Source of the DNA: Desulfatibacillum sp.
GTDB taxonomy: Bacteria; Desulfobacterota; Desulfobacteria; Desulfobacterales; Desulfatibacillaceae
NCBI GenBank assembly: GCA_016342355.1
Contig: JAEINP010000045.1
Location: forward strand, 1 to 39,922
Length of the DNA: 39,922 bases
Direction: 5' to 3'
Under the pieces are notes generated by a model, which saw only the letters and a list, made by a program, of their open reading frames with translations, did no database searches and was not told the DNA's origin. Numbering within the stretch: the stretch's first letter is position 1; each line of letters begins with the position of its first letter. This document shows positions 7,306 through 13,359 of the stretch, one piece after another. The position numbers and the translations under genes were made by a program.

Positions 7306-9162
7306 ATGAAAACACTCAGTGGAAGCCAGATCCTGGCGCGAAGCATCGCCGGGGCCGGAATCGGCTATGTATTCACGGTCCCCACCCCCAGACTAAAACC
7401 GGTCCTGGATTGCCTGGAAAAAATTCAAGGCATGACGGTAATCACAGCCAGGGATGAAACCGCCGCCGCCCTCATGGCGGACGGGTATATCCGGCGCTCC
7501 CGGCTATTCGCCGCCGTTCTCACAGACGCCCATGGCCGCAGTCTGTCCCAGGTTAGCGGCGTCACCAATGCCTGGGCCGACAAAATCCCCCTGGTCTCTG
7601 TCAGCTTATGCGAGGACGCAGCGCCCAACGCCAATAAAGGAATCGCCCGATCCCGATACGACGCCAACCGGGTGTTCGAGCCGGTCACGGTTTGGAGAAA
7701 ACGCCTGTCCGGATTGGCCGACATGCCCAAGGCCTTTGTGGACGCCGTGGCCGCCAGCCAGGGAAACCGGCGCGGACCCGTGCACCTGGACTTGGAAGCC
7801 GGACTTCTGGACCGCAGAATCGAAGAGGGCATTCCCGGCATTCCACCCGAAGGGCCGGTGGAACCCCAAAAACTGACGCCAATGAGGCTTTCCGGGGATT
7901 CCCAGACAGTCGACCAAGCCGTAAAACTGCTAAAACAAGCCCGCAAACCCCTGATTATAACCGGTGGAGGCGTCAAAGCCTCCCGGGCCAGCCTGGATGT
8001 AGTCCGCTTTATGGAACGCTTTGGCCTGCCCGGATGCACCACCATGGCGGGCATTGGAACCATTCCGTCAGACCATGCCTATTGCCTGGGCGGTCCCAGC
8101 TACACCGCCGGCGAGGCCTTTCATGTCGCCATCAAAAAAGCTGACGTGATCCTGGCTCTGGGATGCAGTTTTTCCGGCCTGGAAGGCTTTGGCCTGCCCC
8201 CTTTGTGGTCCGAGCGGATCAAATTCATCCACATTGACAATAATCCCAACCAGATTGGCCTGAACGTCAACCCGGAGATTCCCATCCTGGGCGACGTGAA
8301 AACCGTACTGGCTCAAATGGCCGAAATCCTGGACGCCACAGCCTTTGTCGCCCCCGATGGATGGGCCCACTGGCGCATGATCCTGGCCGACCTCAAAAGG
8401 CAGCGAAAAACCAGGCTCCTAAATTTCGCCAACCGCCCTTGGGGCGGCCTGCACCAGGGCTCGGTGGCCCTGGAAATGGGCAAAATTGTGGAAAAGGATA
8501 ACCTCATCATGGTCATTGACGGGGGCAACACCCCCCTGTACGCAGCCATGTACGGCCCTGGCATGAGCCCGCGCCAAAGTTTTTTTCCCTTTGGCATGGC
8601 CGCTCTGGGAGGGGGAGTCCCATACGCCATTGGCGTGGCCCTGGCAGCACCCCATAAACGCGTCATGTTGATCACCGGGGACGGCTCCTCCATGTACGCC
8701 ATCAGCGAACTGGAAACCATGAAGCGGCTGAACCTGCCCATCACCATTGTCGTGAACAACGATTCCTCCTGGAACATGATCAAAGCCCTCCAGGATTCCC
8801 TGTTCGAGGGCAATTACGTAGGCACCTGCCTGCCGGATATCGACTACGCCAAAATCGCCGCAGGATTCGGCCTCTATTCCGAAAGGGTGAAAAACGCCCA
8901 TGAACTGGTCCCGGCCTATGAAAGAGCTGTGGAATCAGGCGGCCCGGCACTTATTGATTGCGTGACGGATTGCAAAAATTTGCCCGACAGCCTCTTGAGT
9001 TTCGCCATGGTGGAGTTCGAGGGCGCCCAGATCAATCCGGTCAAACTGGCCAAAAGCCTCTGGAAAGGGCGTGACATGGGATTAAGCAGAGCGTTGCACC
9101 AAGTCACCTATGTGCGGAAAGCCCTGCTTGGTTTTAACCCCAGTACAAAAAGGCGGGTGTAA
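7306..9162 (+). CDS. Thiamine-diphosphate-dependent enzyme, acetolactate synthase-like (intact motifs)
   Basis: Cytoplasmic ThDP enzyme of 618 residues with the acetolactate synthase/pyruvate oxidase order: PYR domain (about 1-170), central domain (about 195-340), PP domain (about 380-560) and a C-terminal extension of about 50 residues. The PYR catalytic glutamate is E51 in ARDETAAALMADGY. The PP domain has the metal-ThDP motif GDGSSMYAISELETM (D459), closing with NN at residues 484-485. It is longer than most family members because of the tail. The substrate is not identifiable; decarboxylation or carboligation of a 2-oxo acid, or C-C cleavage of a 2-hydroxyacyl group, would fit. Its stop codon is one base from the start of a paralogous gene. 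The start follows an AAGAGG about 12 bases upstream, a weak ribosome site. Confidence 0.85.
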   Translation: MKTLSGSQILARSIAGAGIGYVFTVPTPRLKPVLDCLEKIQGMTVITARDETAAALMADGYIRRSRLFAAVLTDAHGRSLSQVSGVTNAWADKIPLVSVSLCEDAAPNANKGIARSRYDANRVFEPVTVWRKRLSGLADMPKAFVDAVAASQGNRRGPVHLDLEAGLLDRRIEEGIPGIPPEGPVEPQKLTPMRLSGDSQTVDQAVKLLKQARKPLIITGGGVKASRASLDVVRFMERFGLPGCTTMAGIGTIPSDHAYCLGGPSYTAGEAFHVAIKKADVILALGCSFSGLEGFGLPPLWSERIKFIHIDNNPNQIGLNVNPEIPILGDVKTVLAQMAEILDATAFVAPDGWAHWRMILADLKRQRKTRLLNFANRPWGGLHQGSVALEMGKIVEKDNLIMVIDGGNTPLYAAMYGPGMSPRQSFFPFGMAALGGGVPYAIGVALAAPHKRVMLITGDGSSMYAISELETMKRLNLPITIVVNNDSSWNMIKALQDSLFEGNYVGTCLPDIDYAKIAAGFGLYSERVKNAHELVPAYERAVESGGPALIDCVTDCKNLPDSLLSFAMVEFEGAQINPVKLAKSLWKGRDMGLSRALHQVTYVRKALLGFNPSTKRRV

Positions 9163-9163
9163 C

Positions 9164-10717
9164 ATGAGAATAGTTACCGGCGGCGAACTTGTGACGGAAT
9201 GCCTTGTGGACCAGGGCGTGAGATACGTATTTTCCATTATCGGCGGGCAAATGGGCACCATATACGACGCCATAGGAAAAAACCCGCATATTGATGTGAT
9301 TACCCCGCGGTCCGAAACCTCCACGGCCATCATGGCTTGCGGATATGCCGTAACCACCGGCCAGCCCGCCGTGTCCATGTGCACAGTGGGCGCCGGGGTG
9401 GTCTACGAAGTGGCTGGCCTGTTAAAGGCATGGCTCACTTACCTGCCTGTTATTTCCATTGCGCCTCAGGTCCAAAGCTACAAAATGAAGCCCAACCAGG
9501 AAAACCTCCAGGCATGCGAACAGGACGAACTTTTTGCGCCCATTACCAAATTCAACGCCATCATCTACCATTGGGAAAGAATTCCCCAACTGATTCACAG
9601 GGCCTTCCGGGAAGCCGCCACCGGCATTCCCGGACCGGTGCATCTGGATATCCCCGTGGACGTGCTGTTCAGGCATAAAATCCTTACCTCCCAACGGCGG
9701 CGGCGTATGCTGGTTCCGCCTCACCAGTCCCGATATATAGGGCCTATTTCGGGGGATGAATCCGCCCTGGAAAAGGCGGGGGAAACCCTAAAATCCGCCA
9801 AAAACCCTTTGGTCATTGTGGGCCAGGGCCTGGGAAGGCCAGGGCGATTCCCGCAGGTGCGGGAGCGCCTGGACAAACTGGGCATACCTTTCCTGGGGAC
9901 CCGCCTTTCCGGCGGGGCCTTTGACGCGGGGGATCAATTCTTTGCCGGAGACGCCCTCGGTTTTGCAAATTCCGAACCCGGAAAAAAAATCCTGGCGGAG
10001 GCGGACTGCCTCCTGGTGGTCGGCCTGGACCCGGATTCCCTAAAAATCCTGGACAGGACCAATACAGTCCCGGTCATCCAGGTGGAAACCGATCCCGCAG
10101 CCATGCTGACAGGAGACCAAACCATTCCGGTGTATGCCGACCCCGTCTCCGCCCTAAACTCCCTGGAATCCGTCCTGGCGCAAAAAAAAGGCCGCCGTCC
10201 CGTGGCCTGGAAAAACAAGGTCCTGAAAGCCGGGGACGCCATAGCCAGGGACATCCTCCAGCAAGCGGGACCGCAACTGGAAACCGCCTTCAACCTTTTG
10301 GACGGAGACTCCATAAAGGACGCCATTTTTGTGGCGGACGGCGGTCCGGCATCCTATGTACCCGCCTTTCTCAAAACCCGAAAACACGCCGGGCTCCATG
10401 TCATGGACCAGGAAGATATGTCCGGGGCGGGCCTGCCTTTCGCCATAGGCGCGGCATTGGGAAATCCCGGCCGGTCGGTGGTGCTTATTTGCGACAAGGA
10501 CTCCCTGTTCCATCACCTGCGGGAACTCCAGCCCGCCGAAGACCTTGGCGTGGGAATAACCATCCTGTGCGTGGATGAAGAACCCAACCAGGGAAACGTG
10601 GCCAACCTGGAAAAAGTGCTGGAAGGCCTGGGATGCCATGTGCACAGGGCCGGGGATAAACCAGGCATTGCCAATATCCTGCGCCATAAGGGCCAGCCCG
10701 GGGCGGTCCTGGTTTAG
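9164..10717 (+). CDS. ThDP-enzyme paralogue with degenerate cofactor-binding motif
   Basis: Paralogue of 517 residues with the same three-domain order. The PYR domain keeps the catalytic glutamate E51 (PRSETSTAIMACGYA) and a good core. In the PP domain the expected G-D-G metal motif reads CDKDSLFHHLREL: aligned with the upstream protein (ITGDGSSMYAISEL), the metal-ligand Asp is Lys445. The closing N-N is V470-D471. The ThDP-pyrophosphate/Mg site of this subunit therefore looks broken while its PYR half looks usable. One base separates the two genes (TAACATG), so translation is probably coupled and a heteromer with the first protein is likely. The start ATG is fixed by the preceding stop and GGCGGG. 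It is shorter than the neighbour because it lacks the C-terminal tail. Confidence 0.82.
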   Translation: MRIVTGGELVTECLVDQGVRYVFSIIGGQMGTIYDAIGKNPHIDVITPRSETSTAIMACGYAVTTGQPAVSMCTVGAGVVYEVAGLLKAWLTYLPVISIAPQVQSYKMKPNQENLQACEQDELFAPITKFNAIIYHWERIPQLIHRAFREAATGIPGPVHLDIPVDVLFRHKILTSQRRRRMLVPPHQSRYIGPISGDESALEKAGETLKSAKNPLVIVGQGLGRPGRFPQVRERLDKLGIPFLGTRLSGGAFDAGDQFFAGDALGFANSEPGKKILAEADCLLVVGLDPDSLKILDRTNTVPVIQVETDPAAMLTGDQTIPVYADPVSALNSLESVLAQKKGRRPVAWKNKVLKAGDAIARDILQQAGPQLETAFNLLDGDSIKDAIFVADGGPASYVPAFLKTRKHAGLHVMDQEDMSGAGLPFAIGAALGNPGRSVVLICDKDSLFHHLRELQPAEDLGVGITILCVDEEPNQGNVANLEKVLEGLGCHVHRAGDKPGIANILRHKGQPGAVLV

Positions 10718-10929
10718 CGAAAACCGGCCATGGAGTTTCGGGCTGGACAGGCTCACAACCTTCGCCCGACCAAATAGTAATTCCTATCAACTGTAGACTG
10801 TTCGCCAAATCTGTATTATTATGGCTTTTGGGAACCAGGGATTTTTGCGTTCGTTGTCACCAAGCGGCGCTGTGGACCGACATTGATTTTGGGGGATGGC
10901 AATTTCACTATCATTTCAGGAAGGTTAAT

Positions 10930-13359
10930 TTGCTCAAATATACTTTGTCCCGCGCCATATGGTCCGCCCTTATTGGTTTGCTCCTTGTTCTTCCCCAATC
11001 GGCTCTGGCGGCAACCGCCCAATTTTCCGGGGTGTATTTCACGGCCAAGGAGTCCAACCTGGGCATGCCCATCCTCCTAAAGGCCCAGATCACCAATGAT
11101 TCAGGCACCCCCCTGTCCGGTAAAACCATTTTTTTCGATATCTATTACAACGGCGCGTGGCACGAAATAAATGAGGCGGACAACGGCTACACCACCAACA
11201 CCTCAGGCATCGCCAGCATGTACTACTATGTGGAGCCCACCCTGGCCCCGGCTGATTACCAGATCCGCGCCCGCTTTGACGGCGATGGAACTTATGACAA
11301 AACATCTCTTCAAAAAGCCCTCACGGCTACCCTGGCCAACGTCACCTTCGCACTGTTCCTGAATGGCGATAACAATTTGGAACCCTACGCGGTGGATGAC
11401 TTTTATAATGAGCTATATCCTCAGGGCACAAACAAACATGTGAATATAATCGTTCTCTTTGACCGGATTTCCGGGTATTCCACAGCGCAGGGTGATTGGA
11501 AGGATACACGGTTATTTTTTGTCTCTCCGGATAGCGTGAACTCAGGAAATTATCTATACAGCAATGACTGGAGCCAATATGGCAATGAATTGAATATGGG
11601 AGATCAGGAAATCCTTAGAGTTTTTACCGAAACCGCGTTTACGGATTTCCCCGCGGAAAACAAGGTGCTGGTGATCTGGGACCATGGAAACGGATGGGAA
11701 GGGGAAACGTCAAAGGCCCTGGCCTTGGATGCGACAGACACCTCCGTTTCCGGAACAGAAGTGGAACTGCCCATGCCGCCCCAGGTGGCTGCCCGGCTGG
11801 CGGCCAAAAGAACCGCCCTTTCAGTGGAAACCACCGAGGACCGGGGGCCGATCAAGTCTATCAGCATTGATTCAAGCTCTGGCGGTGATCGCCTCAGTCT
11901 GCCGGAAGTTTCCGGGGCCATTGAGGATTCCGGCCATATGCTGGATGTCCTGGCCATGGACGCCTGCCTTATGGGCATGGTGGAAGTGGCCTATCAGGTC
12001 AAGGACGTGGCCAGGTATTATGTGGCTTCGGCAGATACCGTGGATGGCGACGGGTTTGATTATGCAAACATTGTACAAAGAATTGCCTCCGAAACCACTG
12101 CCCGAAGTCTGGCTTGGGACATGGTGGACCTCTACAAAAACTTCTATACCGACGATTCCTATCAAGCCACCCTGGCTGCCTGGGATCTTATGGATATGGA
12201 TCCCCTTTTTTCAGCCATGGAAACCCTGTCCACCACCTTCCTGGACCGGATGGATCAGATCCCCTATGCGGAACGCTCAGCCCTGCGATCCGCTACCGAA
12301 AACATGATCGATGAACAGGAATTCTATGATATCGGCTCCCTGGTCCATCACATCCAGCAGGAAATTTCCGACCCCCTGGTCAAAGCCACTGCCCAGGCCC
12401 TGGAAGACCGGATTGTGGAAGCTGTCAGAGTGAATTACTGGATTCATTCAGGAACACGCTTTGGTTACGCGTATTCCAACACCACCGGCATGACCGGCCT
12501 CACCCTTTACTGGCCCCTTGTTAGCGGTTTCAATTCAGACTATACAAACCCGAATGTGCTTAGTTACGCCAACCAGTCCTGGAACAAGGCCGTGCGTTTA
12601 CTCCTGGACGGCAAGCCCCCCACGACCAGCGTGGTCCAATGGATTACCGCCCCCCAGGCAGTAGATGATTCCTCTATTTCCATGACGTCCTTTACGGCCA
12701 CGGATCAACTTGGCAACACGGTCTATTACCAGTTTACCTTCACCCAAAGCCCCACCGGGGGAGGGGGCGGCAGCGACTCCACCAACCGCTACACATCCAC
12801 AACATACACGGACCAAGGTCTGGAACCCAATCACCAGTATTGTTACACGGTCTACGCCCACGACGGCGCAGGCAACCAGACCGGAACCACCTTCGAGGAA
12901 TGCGCCGTCACCCGGGCGCAAACGCCGGGAACGGGTATTTTTTCCGGCAACCAATGCGATTCCATAACGGTTTCCTGGGACCCCCTAAACAACCCGGAGG
13001 GCACCCAATACTATTGCGAAAACACCACCCTGGGAACCAACTCAGGCTGGATTACCACCCCCCTGTGGCAAAGCACCGGCCTTTCCAATGATAATATCTA
13101 CTCTTTCCGGGTAAAAGCCAGAAACCGTGCAAATGTGGAAACCAACTGGCGGGTCCTGGATGATTTTTCAACTGGTTTATGCACCGGGGATATCAATGAT
13201 GACAGCCACATTACCGTGGCCGACGCCATATTATGCCTCCAGGTTGCGGCGGGCATGAACCCCCAGGGAGTAAGAAAAAGTTCAGCAATTGACGCATTGC
13301 AGCAAATCGGGCTTGACGAAGCTCTCTATATTTTGCAGATTGAAGGCGATTCAAGATAG
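10930..13359 (+). CDS. Exported clostripain-family (C11) cysteine peptidase with dockerin-like tail
   Basis: Predicted exported protein of about 809 residues. A signal peptide (SALIGLLLVLPQSALA) is followed by an Ig-like domain (about 30-135), the C11 peptidase domain (about 140-550), fibronectin-III-like modules (about 560-750) and a C-terminal dockerin-like module beginning GDINDDSHITVADAIL. The catalytic His lies in LVIWDHGNGWEG and the catalytic Cys in AMDACLMGMVEVAYQV, both typical of clostripain. The start chosen is TTG at 10930, with AGGAAGG five bases upstream and a signal peptide right after; the frame stays open upstream but encodes no plausible leader. C11 peptidases cleave after basic residues and mature autocatalytically; the target here is unknown. 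An exported amidohydrolase gene follows 29 bp downstream. Confidence 0.86.
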   Translation: MLKYTLSRAIWSALIGLLLVLPQSALAATAQFSGVYFTAKESNLGMPILLKAQITNDSGTPLSGKTIFFDIYYNGAWHEINEADNGYTTNTSGIASMYYYVEPTLAPADYQIRARFDGDGTYDKTSLQKALTATLANVTFALFLNGDNNLEPYAVDDFYNELYPQGTNKHVNIIVLFDRISGYSTAQGDWKDTRLFFVSPDSVNSGNYLYSNDWSQYGNELNMGDQEILRVFTETAFTDFPAENKVLVIWDHGNGWEGETSKALALDATDTSVSGTEVELPMPPQVAARLAAKRTALSVETTEDRGPIKSISIDSSSGGDRLSLPEVSGAIEDSGHMLDVLAMDACLMGMVEVAYQVKDVARYYVASADTVDGDGFDYANIVQRIASETTARSLAWDMVDLYKNFYTDDSYQATLAAWDLMDMDPLFSAMETLSTTFLDRMDQIPYAERSALRSATENMIDEQEFYDIGSLVHHIQQEISDPLVKATAQALEDRIVEAVRVNYWIHSGTRFGYAYSNTTGMTGLTLYWPLVSGFNSDYTNPNVLSYANQSWNKAVRLLLDGKPPTTSVVQWITAPQAVDDSSISMTSFTATDQLGNTVYYQFTFTQSPTGGGGGSDSTNRYTSTTYTDQGLEPNHQYCYTVYAHDGAGNQTGTTFEECAVTRAQTPGTGIFSGNQCDSITVSWDPLNNPEGTQYYCENTTLGTNSGWITTPLWQSTGLSNDNIYSFRVKARNRANVETNWRVLDDFSTGLCTGDINDDSHITVADAILCLQVAAGMNPQGVRKSSAIDALQQIGLDEALYILQIEGDSR

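Follow-up and report, generated by a model that had tools for sequence, protein, structure and literature searches.

Adjacent thiamine diphosphate enzyme paralogues with reciprocally degenerate half-sites, a probable obligate heteromer, in Desulfatibacillum and other bacteria

We analysed a stretch of 39,922 nucleotides from a Desulfatibacillum sp. (contig JAEINP010000045.1 of a 5.26 Mb genome, hereafter the window) and found that two adjacent genes on its forward strand, ORF1 and ORF2, encode full-length thiamine diphosphate (ThDP) enzyme paralogues that, by alignment, are reciprocally broken: the PYR half of ORF1 and the PP half of ORF2 are degenerate, and Glu51 (E51) is retained in both. 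Enzymes of this superfamily bind ThDP at a chain interface, where one chain contributes its PYR domain and the other its PP domain. We consider it probable, judging from the sequences, that ORF1 and ORF2 form an obligate heteromeric ThDP lyase or ligase with one composite site and one dead site, which would have arisen through duplication and reciprocal loss.

ORF1 (7306..9162, + strand, as are all features below) encodes a protein of 618 aa, and ORF2 (9164..10717, with its ATG at 9164) one of 517 aa. A single base (9163) separates the stop codon of ORF1 from the start codon of ORF2, and the two proteins are 24% identical. The Pfam domains TPP_enzyme_N, _M, and _C all scored above the gathering cut-off in both, which places both chains among the three-domain (PYR-TH3-PP) members of the ThDP decarboxylase/acetohydroxyacid synthase (AHAS) superfamily. 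The score of the C domain was 24.6 bits (cut-off 21.9) over 52 profile positions for ORF2, versus 121.5 bits over the whole profile for ORF1. The PYR domain of ORF1 (residues 1-175, 7306..7830) is degenerate in conserved-column retention, except for E51 (codon 7456..7458). Its PP domain (residues 385-556, 8458..8973) is intact by alignment, with the metal motif G458-D459-G460 (8677..8685) and N484-N485 (8755..8760). In ORF2, the PYR domain (residues 1-175, 9164..9688), with E51 at 9314..9316, is the best-conserved part, and the PP domain (residues 380-517, 10301..10714) is degenerate and shortened at its C-terminus, with D444-K445-D446 at the GDG columns (10493..10501) and V470-D471 at the NN columns (10571..10576). 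Neither protein combines a complete PYR half with GDG...N in one chain, the PYR half of ORF1 being degenerate and ORF2 being devoid of both GDG and N. From Pfam, alignment, and orthologues, ORF1 would thus provide the intact PP half, and ORF2 the better kept PYR half.

A preliminary description of this DNA had reported the adjacency of the two paralogues, one base apart, with E51 in both, and a GDG/NN motif in the first chain opposed to Lys445 and a V-D pair in the second. The coordinates and an alignment with 60 other proteins confirmed the former observation, and the comparison of the same alignment columns confirmed the latter. It had recognised a broken motif in the second chain only; the PYR half of the first turned out to be degenerate as well, in a manner complementary to the loss in ORF2.

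This was established by aligning the ORF1 and ORF2 proteins of 16 genomes with 60 ordinary ThDP proteins from genome searches, which had been collected for their similarity to ORF2 or for a match to PF02775 (65 were extracted; 3 outside 400-760 aa and 2 wrong-frame translations, L069 and L090, were removed). In the columns where at least 80% of the ordinary proteins share a residue, the mean retention of that residue in the PYR domain (40 columns) was 0.43 for ORF1 and 0.78 for ORF2, while in the PP domain (24 columns) it was 0.76 for ORF1 and 0.47 for ORF2. The corresponding values for the middle domain (18 columns) were 0.80 and 0.59. With an uncleaned control set of 62 proteins, the values for ORF1 and ORF2 were 0.45 and 0.82 (PYR) and 0.76 and 0.49 (PP), and the conclusions were the same; cleaning shifted the figures slightly towards the proposed reading. 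Glu51 was found in 16/16 orthologues of each protein, but otherwise the PYR half of ORF1 had lost residues typical of ordinary enzymes: glycine was never present at positions 27, 28, and 78, Gly76 was found in 1/16, and Thr74, Pro77, and Gln116 were absent. The ORF2 PYR half contained G27, T74, G76, G78, and Q116 in 16/16 orthologues and G28 in 15/16. PMC3534367 describes an S-pocket glycine at standard position 27, present in 91% of the superfamily, and E51 as an active-site residue; in our reading, column 27 of the alignment corresponds to this S-pocket position. In the PP half of ORF1, GDG and the second Asn were present in 16/16 orthologues and the first Asn in 15/16.

Further evidence for the reciprocity of the losses was obtained with domain hidden Markov models (HMMs) built from the ordinary set, whose members were scored held-out. 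The difference between the PYR and PP scores ranged from -9 to +58 bits in the ordinary proteins (n=60), from -61 to -91 bits in the ORF1 proteins (16/16), and from +97 to +139 bits in the 14 uncut ORF2 proteins. Neither family overlapped with any of the 60 ordinary enzymes, ORF1 lying to one side of them and ORF2 to the other. With the uncleaned set, the ranges were -11 to +62, -52 to -87, and, for all 16 ORF2 proteins, +94 to +160. The ORF1 PYR domain scored 83-103 bits and the ORF2 PP domain at most 43 bits, below every ordinary value (minima of 127 and 111, respectively). Within-family identity (10 genomes, 45 pairs, in an alignment that still contained the wrong-frame rows L069 and L090) amounted to 46% for PYR and 60% for PP in ORF1, and to 65% for PYR and 36% for PP in ORF2.

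The metal motif of the ORF2 PP half could be read in 14 of the 16 orthologues, the two others being cut by contig ends. The position of the metal Asp was occupied by Lys in 9, Gln in 3, Gly in 1, and Ala in 1, but never by Asp. Outside these 14, a C-terminal piece of ORF2 from genome G004, found on a separate contig, had an Arg there, as seen by eye. At the position of the second Asn we found Asp in 13/14 and Gln in 1/14. The ordinary ThDP proteins contained the metal Asp in 60/60, the preceding Gly in 60/60, and the second Asn in 51/60, so that the departures in ORF2 are no accident. Loss of the first Asn in ORF2 carries little weight, because only 12/60 ordinary proteins have Asn there. These motif counts, initially tabulated from an alignment that included wrong-frame rows, were reproduced in the cleaned alignment. 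The contig scan that yielded most of the orthologues (see below) was blind to the state of the PP domain, because its two peptide patterns lie in the PYR domain of ORF2. The preliminary description had proposed to check if the Lys is conserved: the absence of the metal Asp is general, but Lys itself is found in only 9 of 14. R453 and E454 of ORF2 were invariant in the orthologue alignments. The dN/dS ratios, determined between the window and G001, a second member of the genus in our set, were 0.10 for ORF1, 0.13 for ORF2, and 0.08 for the ORF2 PP domain, with dS values of about 1-2 that are near saturation. Selection on ORF2 looks purifying from these values.

ORF1 was located directly 5' of ORF2 in 16/16 genomes in which ORF2 was found, the two genes overlapping by up to 4 bases or lying up to 10 bases apart. 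These 16 genomes comprise 14 orthologous loci from a contig scan with the two ORF2 peptide patterns, the window, and G117; the 15th locus found by the scan (L061, 27% identity, normal GDG) was left out as non-orthologous. The titles of the scanned records were Desulfatibacillum, other Desulfobacterota or Deltaproteobacteria, Smithella, Candidatus Anammoxibacter, Actinomycetota or Acidimicrobium, Bacillota, Proteobacteria, and Spirochaetes. A whole-protein search of the family retrieved ORF2 orthologues in 6/9 genomes and ORF1 orthologues in the same 6; in the order, both were found in the same 7 of 389 genomes. Orthologues of ORF2 at the order level shared at least 48% identity, the remaining matches (27-32%) being excluded, and those of ORF1 in the family and order genomes at least 53%. 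In the phylum sample, each of ORF1 and ORF2 was carried by the same 4 of 395 genomes, with scores of at least 764 bits (ORF2) and 879 bits (ORF1); the next matches, at 267 and 344 bits, were counted as ordinary enzymes. The order and phylum searches scored no more than 3 candidates from each genome, and the class search no more than 5. The contig scan also gave a 72% match to ORF2 in Desulfatibacillum alkenivorans DSM 16219, and G001, which carries the pair, gave the same 72%. ORF1 and ORF2 distances were correlated (r 0.98) over 13 complete pairs, leaving out the cut pairs of Bac054, Bac058, and G004; this value indicates co-inheritance only, because linked genes give such a correlation anyway. 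The pair is thus a conserved two-gene unit that recurs in distantly related bacteria.

We infer that the pair originated from a single-chain enzyme that was duplicated, each copy then losing the complementary half-site. In trees of the PYR and PP domains, cleaned of the wrong-frame rows L069, L090, and L130, ORF1 and ORF2 formed one clade relative to 70 single-chain rows (support of 95 and 90, respectively). The nearest single-chain proteins to all four halves of the window pair were L063, L064, L117, L118, and L119. The distances to these five were 1.8-2.05 for the ORF2 PYR and ORF1 PP domains and 3.4-4.3 for the ORF1 PYR and ORF2 PP domains. The three of the five that were read out (L117-L119) have kept Glu51 and GDG, with NN in two and GN in L119. 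In the PYR tree made before cleaning, ORF1 and ORF2 did not form a clade, yet a clade was not rejected (approximately unbiased (AU) test, p 0.67) and the constrained tree was the likelier; nor did this test reject a tree in which ORF1 or ORF2 grouped with the single-chain proteins.

As to the mechanism, ORF1 and ORF2 would assemble as a heterodimer or as a dimer of heterodimers, in which the PYR domain of ORF2 and the PP domain of ORF1 would make up a live site, and the PYR domain of ORF1 and the PP domain of ORF2 a dead one. We take the heteromer to be obligate because the former pairing is the only one that unites the two better kept halves. The preliminary description had already suggested a single working site of this composition, along with half-of-sites or regulatory behaviour, and for the single site the degeneracy of the ORF1 PYR half provides additional support. 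The least certain part is the chemistry: most likely the enzyme would be a ThDP carbanion (acyloin/2-hydroxyacyl) lyase or ligase acting on a ketone, an aldehyde, or an acyl-CoA.

Another arrangement would be that an ORF1 homodimer is catalytic and ORF2 a dead regulator or scaffold, for instance in a tetramer made of an ORF1 dimer and an ORF2 dimer. Such a homodimer would retain the Glu and the metal motif, since ORF1 has E51 and GDG in all orthologues and NN in 15 of 16, and the absence of the metal Asp from every readable ORF2 would suit a dead partner. We nevertheless find this arrangement unlikely. The PYR half of ORF1 lacks Gly27, Gly28, Gly78, and Gln116 in 16/16 orthologues; a dead ORF2 would need none of these residues, yet it keeps each of them in 15 or 16 of 16, and its PYR half is, at 65% identity, the best conserved of the four half-sites. 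The PP half of ORF2 could, on the other hand, be altered but working, binding ThDP or another ligand without metal, with Lys in place of Mg2+, so that both sites are used. The purifying selection on this domain (dN/dS of 0.08), the Lys in 9/14, the Asp at the second Asn position in 13/14, and the invariance of R453 and E454 would all fit. The residue at the metal position is, however, variable (K, Q, G, or A), and the domain is shortened and only 36% identical within the family, compared with 60% for the ORF1 PP domain, which makes this explanation quite improbable. ORF2 being a decaying pseudogene would account for the loss of its cofactor motifs, but we give this almost no credence: the frames are open and the adjacency strict in 16/16, the same loss is found in records titled as several phyla, and the dN/dS of ORF2 is 0.13. 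Simple decay, for which the preliminary description would have expected normal GDG motifs in the ORF2 homologues of close relatives, was rejected in view of the conservation across orthologues, all 14 readable ones being without the metal Asp, and of the dN/dS.

Several observations weigh against an obligate heteromer with one live site, or make its basis less secure. The complex is a prediction from sequence. E51 of ORF1 is invariant (16/16) even though it is placed in the dead site. We have no explanation for this in the proposed model; the residue may be structural, may couple the two sites, or may be a sign of active ORF1 homodimers. The PYR half of ORF2 is itself not wholly canonical: Pro77 of the GPG loop is replaced by Ala and Asn81 by Tyr in 16/16, the His preceding E51 is kept in 1/16, and its score (137-170 bits) is below the ordinary 5th percentile (186). 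Similarly, the ORF1 PP domain, with 150-175 bits, scores low compared with the ordinary proteins (5th percentile of 152). The conservation of the ORF2 PYR domain is inflated at the 14 scan loci because the scan patterns lay in this domain; the 7 ORF2 proteins that were also retrieved by whole-protein search scored alike (137-166 bits). The divergence of the ORF1 PYR domain might also represent specialisation instead of loss. Finally, long branches and a fast tree-building method limit the domain trees, and the near-saturation of dS limits the dN/dS ratios; most of the phylum labels come from metagenome-bin titles, some of which may be incorrect.

A bolder version of the proposal, which we regard as possible but doubtful, is that this heterodimer of full-length paralogues represents a new architectural class of ThDP enzymes, found as a two-gene unit in distant bacteria, whose second site has lost the cofactor and serves for control or coupling. 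In this control site, the Lys or Gln of ORF2 at the place of the Mg2+ ligand would face the invariant Glu51 of ORF1.

Heteromeric ThDP enzymes with a divided site are already known, but as split chains. The accessible text of PMC12141560 describes the RhiEF phosphonopyruvate decarboxylase and the ComDE sulfopyruvate decarboxylase as heteromers of one PYR-like and one PP-like product, with ThDP bound, in RhiEF, at the subunit interface. ORF1 and ORF2 resemble them in being a ThDP-type pair of two gene products, the heteromer being in our case predicted from sequence; they differ in that each chain of RhiEF and ComDE has one domain, whereas ORF1 and ORF2 each have all three, with one half vestigial. 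Transketolase belongs to another ThDP family. The split-gene transketolase of Carboxydothermus is an active alpha2beta2 ThDP enzyme that was reconstituted from two polypeptides, according to the part of PMC7661550 available; it derives from a split gene, whereas ORF1 and ORF2 are two full-length paralogues with complementary loss. In the open-access literature, where absence could be tested only weakly, we found no ThDP enzyme in which two full-length chains have each lost the opposite half-site, the split-domain enzymes being the nearest.

AHAS, which uses identical catalytic chains, shares the three-domain fold, and its large subunit (also acetolactate synthase) is among the top sequence and fold neighbours of both ORF1 and ORF2. 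An ordinary acetolactate synthase (TIGR00118) was rejected, with scores of 255.8 bits for ORF1 and 178.7 bits for ORF2 against a cut-off of 538.35. The 2-hydroxyacyl-CoA lyases/synthases, including the actinobacterial AcHACL, which has one chain type, rank with the best matches of ORF1 in both sequence and fold. The PP half of ORF1 and AcHACL have in common the stretches WN and VGT.L.D.DYA...FG...ERV; the 2-hydroxyacyl-CoA lyase model NF058623 gave 199.9 bits with ORF1, below its cut-off of 600. Glu493, described as the acid/base residue of AcHACL in the accessible part of PMC13327070, aligns with Ser488 of ORF1, a position where 14/16 orthologues have Ala, in a column read by eye against the mutant chain 7pt3 (E493A). 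Because of the sulfate-reducer context, we also considered the acetone-activating ThDP enzyme of Desulfococcus/Desulfosarcina, which the available passages of PMC4103992 and PMC7888143 describe as a 77.6 kDa chain clustered with a B12-dependent mutase. This identity, though conceivable, was not supported. No mutase was noticed among the genes listed at the pair loci, which were inspected by eye and without running a mutase model; at L081, a corrinoid-protein-like gene is found near the pair on the other strand. Among the best 25 matches shown for each chain, no NCBIfam cut-off was reached.

AlphaFold models of the monomers had the expected fold (pLDDT 82 and pTM 0.87 for ORF2, pLDDT 73.9 and pTM 0.80 for ORF1), the ORF1 model being poor in several places, including residues 487-509 and the C-terminal tail. 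The best fold matches in the PDB included AHASs, 2-hydroxyacyl-CoA lyases/synthases, and benzaldehyde lyase. The tail of ORF1 (residues 557-618, 8974..9159), about 60 aa past the PP domain, is modelled as low-confidence helices. It is strongly conserved in the genus, with the lowest dN/dS of the tested parts (0.03), and can be made out in the majority of the 16 orthologues; it could contact ORF2.

In other lineages, the pair is accompanied by genes for a short-chain dehydrogenase (directly 3' of ORF2 in L050, L051, L052, and L060), a long enoyl-CoA hydratase homologue (near the pair in L049, L050, L051, L052, L053, and L056), a CMD protein, a glyoxalase-like protein, and an acyl-CoA dehydrogenase, which suggest acyl-CoA or ketone catabolism. 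The dehydrogenase and the hydratase homologue were recognised by their N-terminal sequence, with Pfam searches covering the L051 and L060 dehydrogenases and the L051 and L056 hydratases. The hydratase homologue is about 340 aa long (L051:9305-10339 and L056:3653-4666), and family models cover mainly its C-terminal half. G117 has two relatives of it (46-47%), one of them on the contig of the pair, about 20 kb away. The flanking genes in the window are different; all below cut-off, they are TetR-like, DJ-1-like, sensor kinase, clostripain-like, and amidohydrolase-like. Because the window genome contains no close hydratase relative (best match 34%, partial), the gene context leaves the substrate unfixed here. 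The clostripain-like gene (below cut-off, 10828-13359) is 3' of the pair; in G001 (L039:11671-16562) its place is taken by two tandem genes with similar starts. The pair of G117 is adjoined, on the opposite strand, by this corrinoid-protein-like gene and one further gene (L081:5444-7568); inspection by eye showed no such neighbours at the other listed loci. Elsewhere in the genome of the window, three more ThDP-type genes lie within 9 kb (G000:C31:2822-11695, locus L045), the third of which, a weak ThDP match at G000:C31:11249, is MenD-like by eye from its N-terminus.

Since acetolactate synthase is, though below cut-off, the family that matches each gene best, model-based annotation may give both this name. 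The two sites of a ThDP dimer are normally identical, and the cross-talk between them is an old question. If the proposal is true, the pair would be a natural enzyme in which exactly one of the two sites is live, so that one-site chemistry could be studied without engineering, and a clean example of paralogues that share out a single active site through complementary loss.

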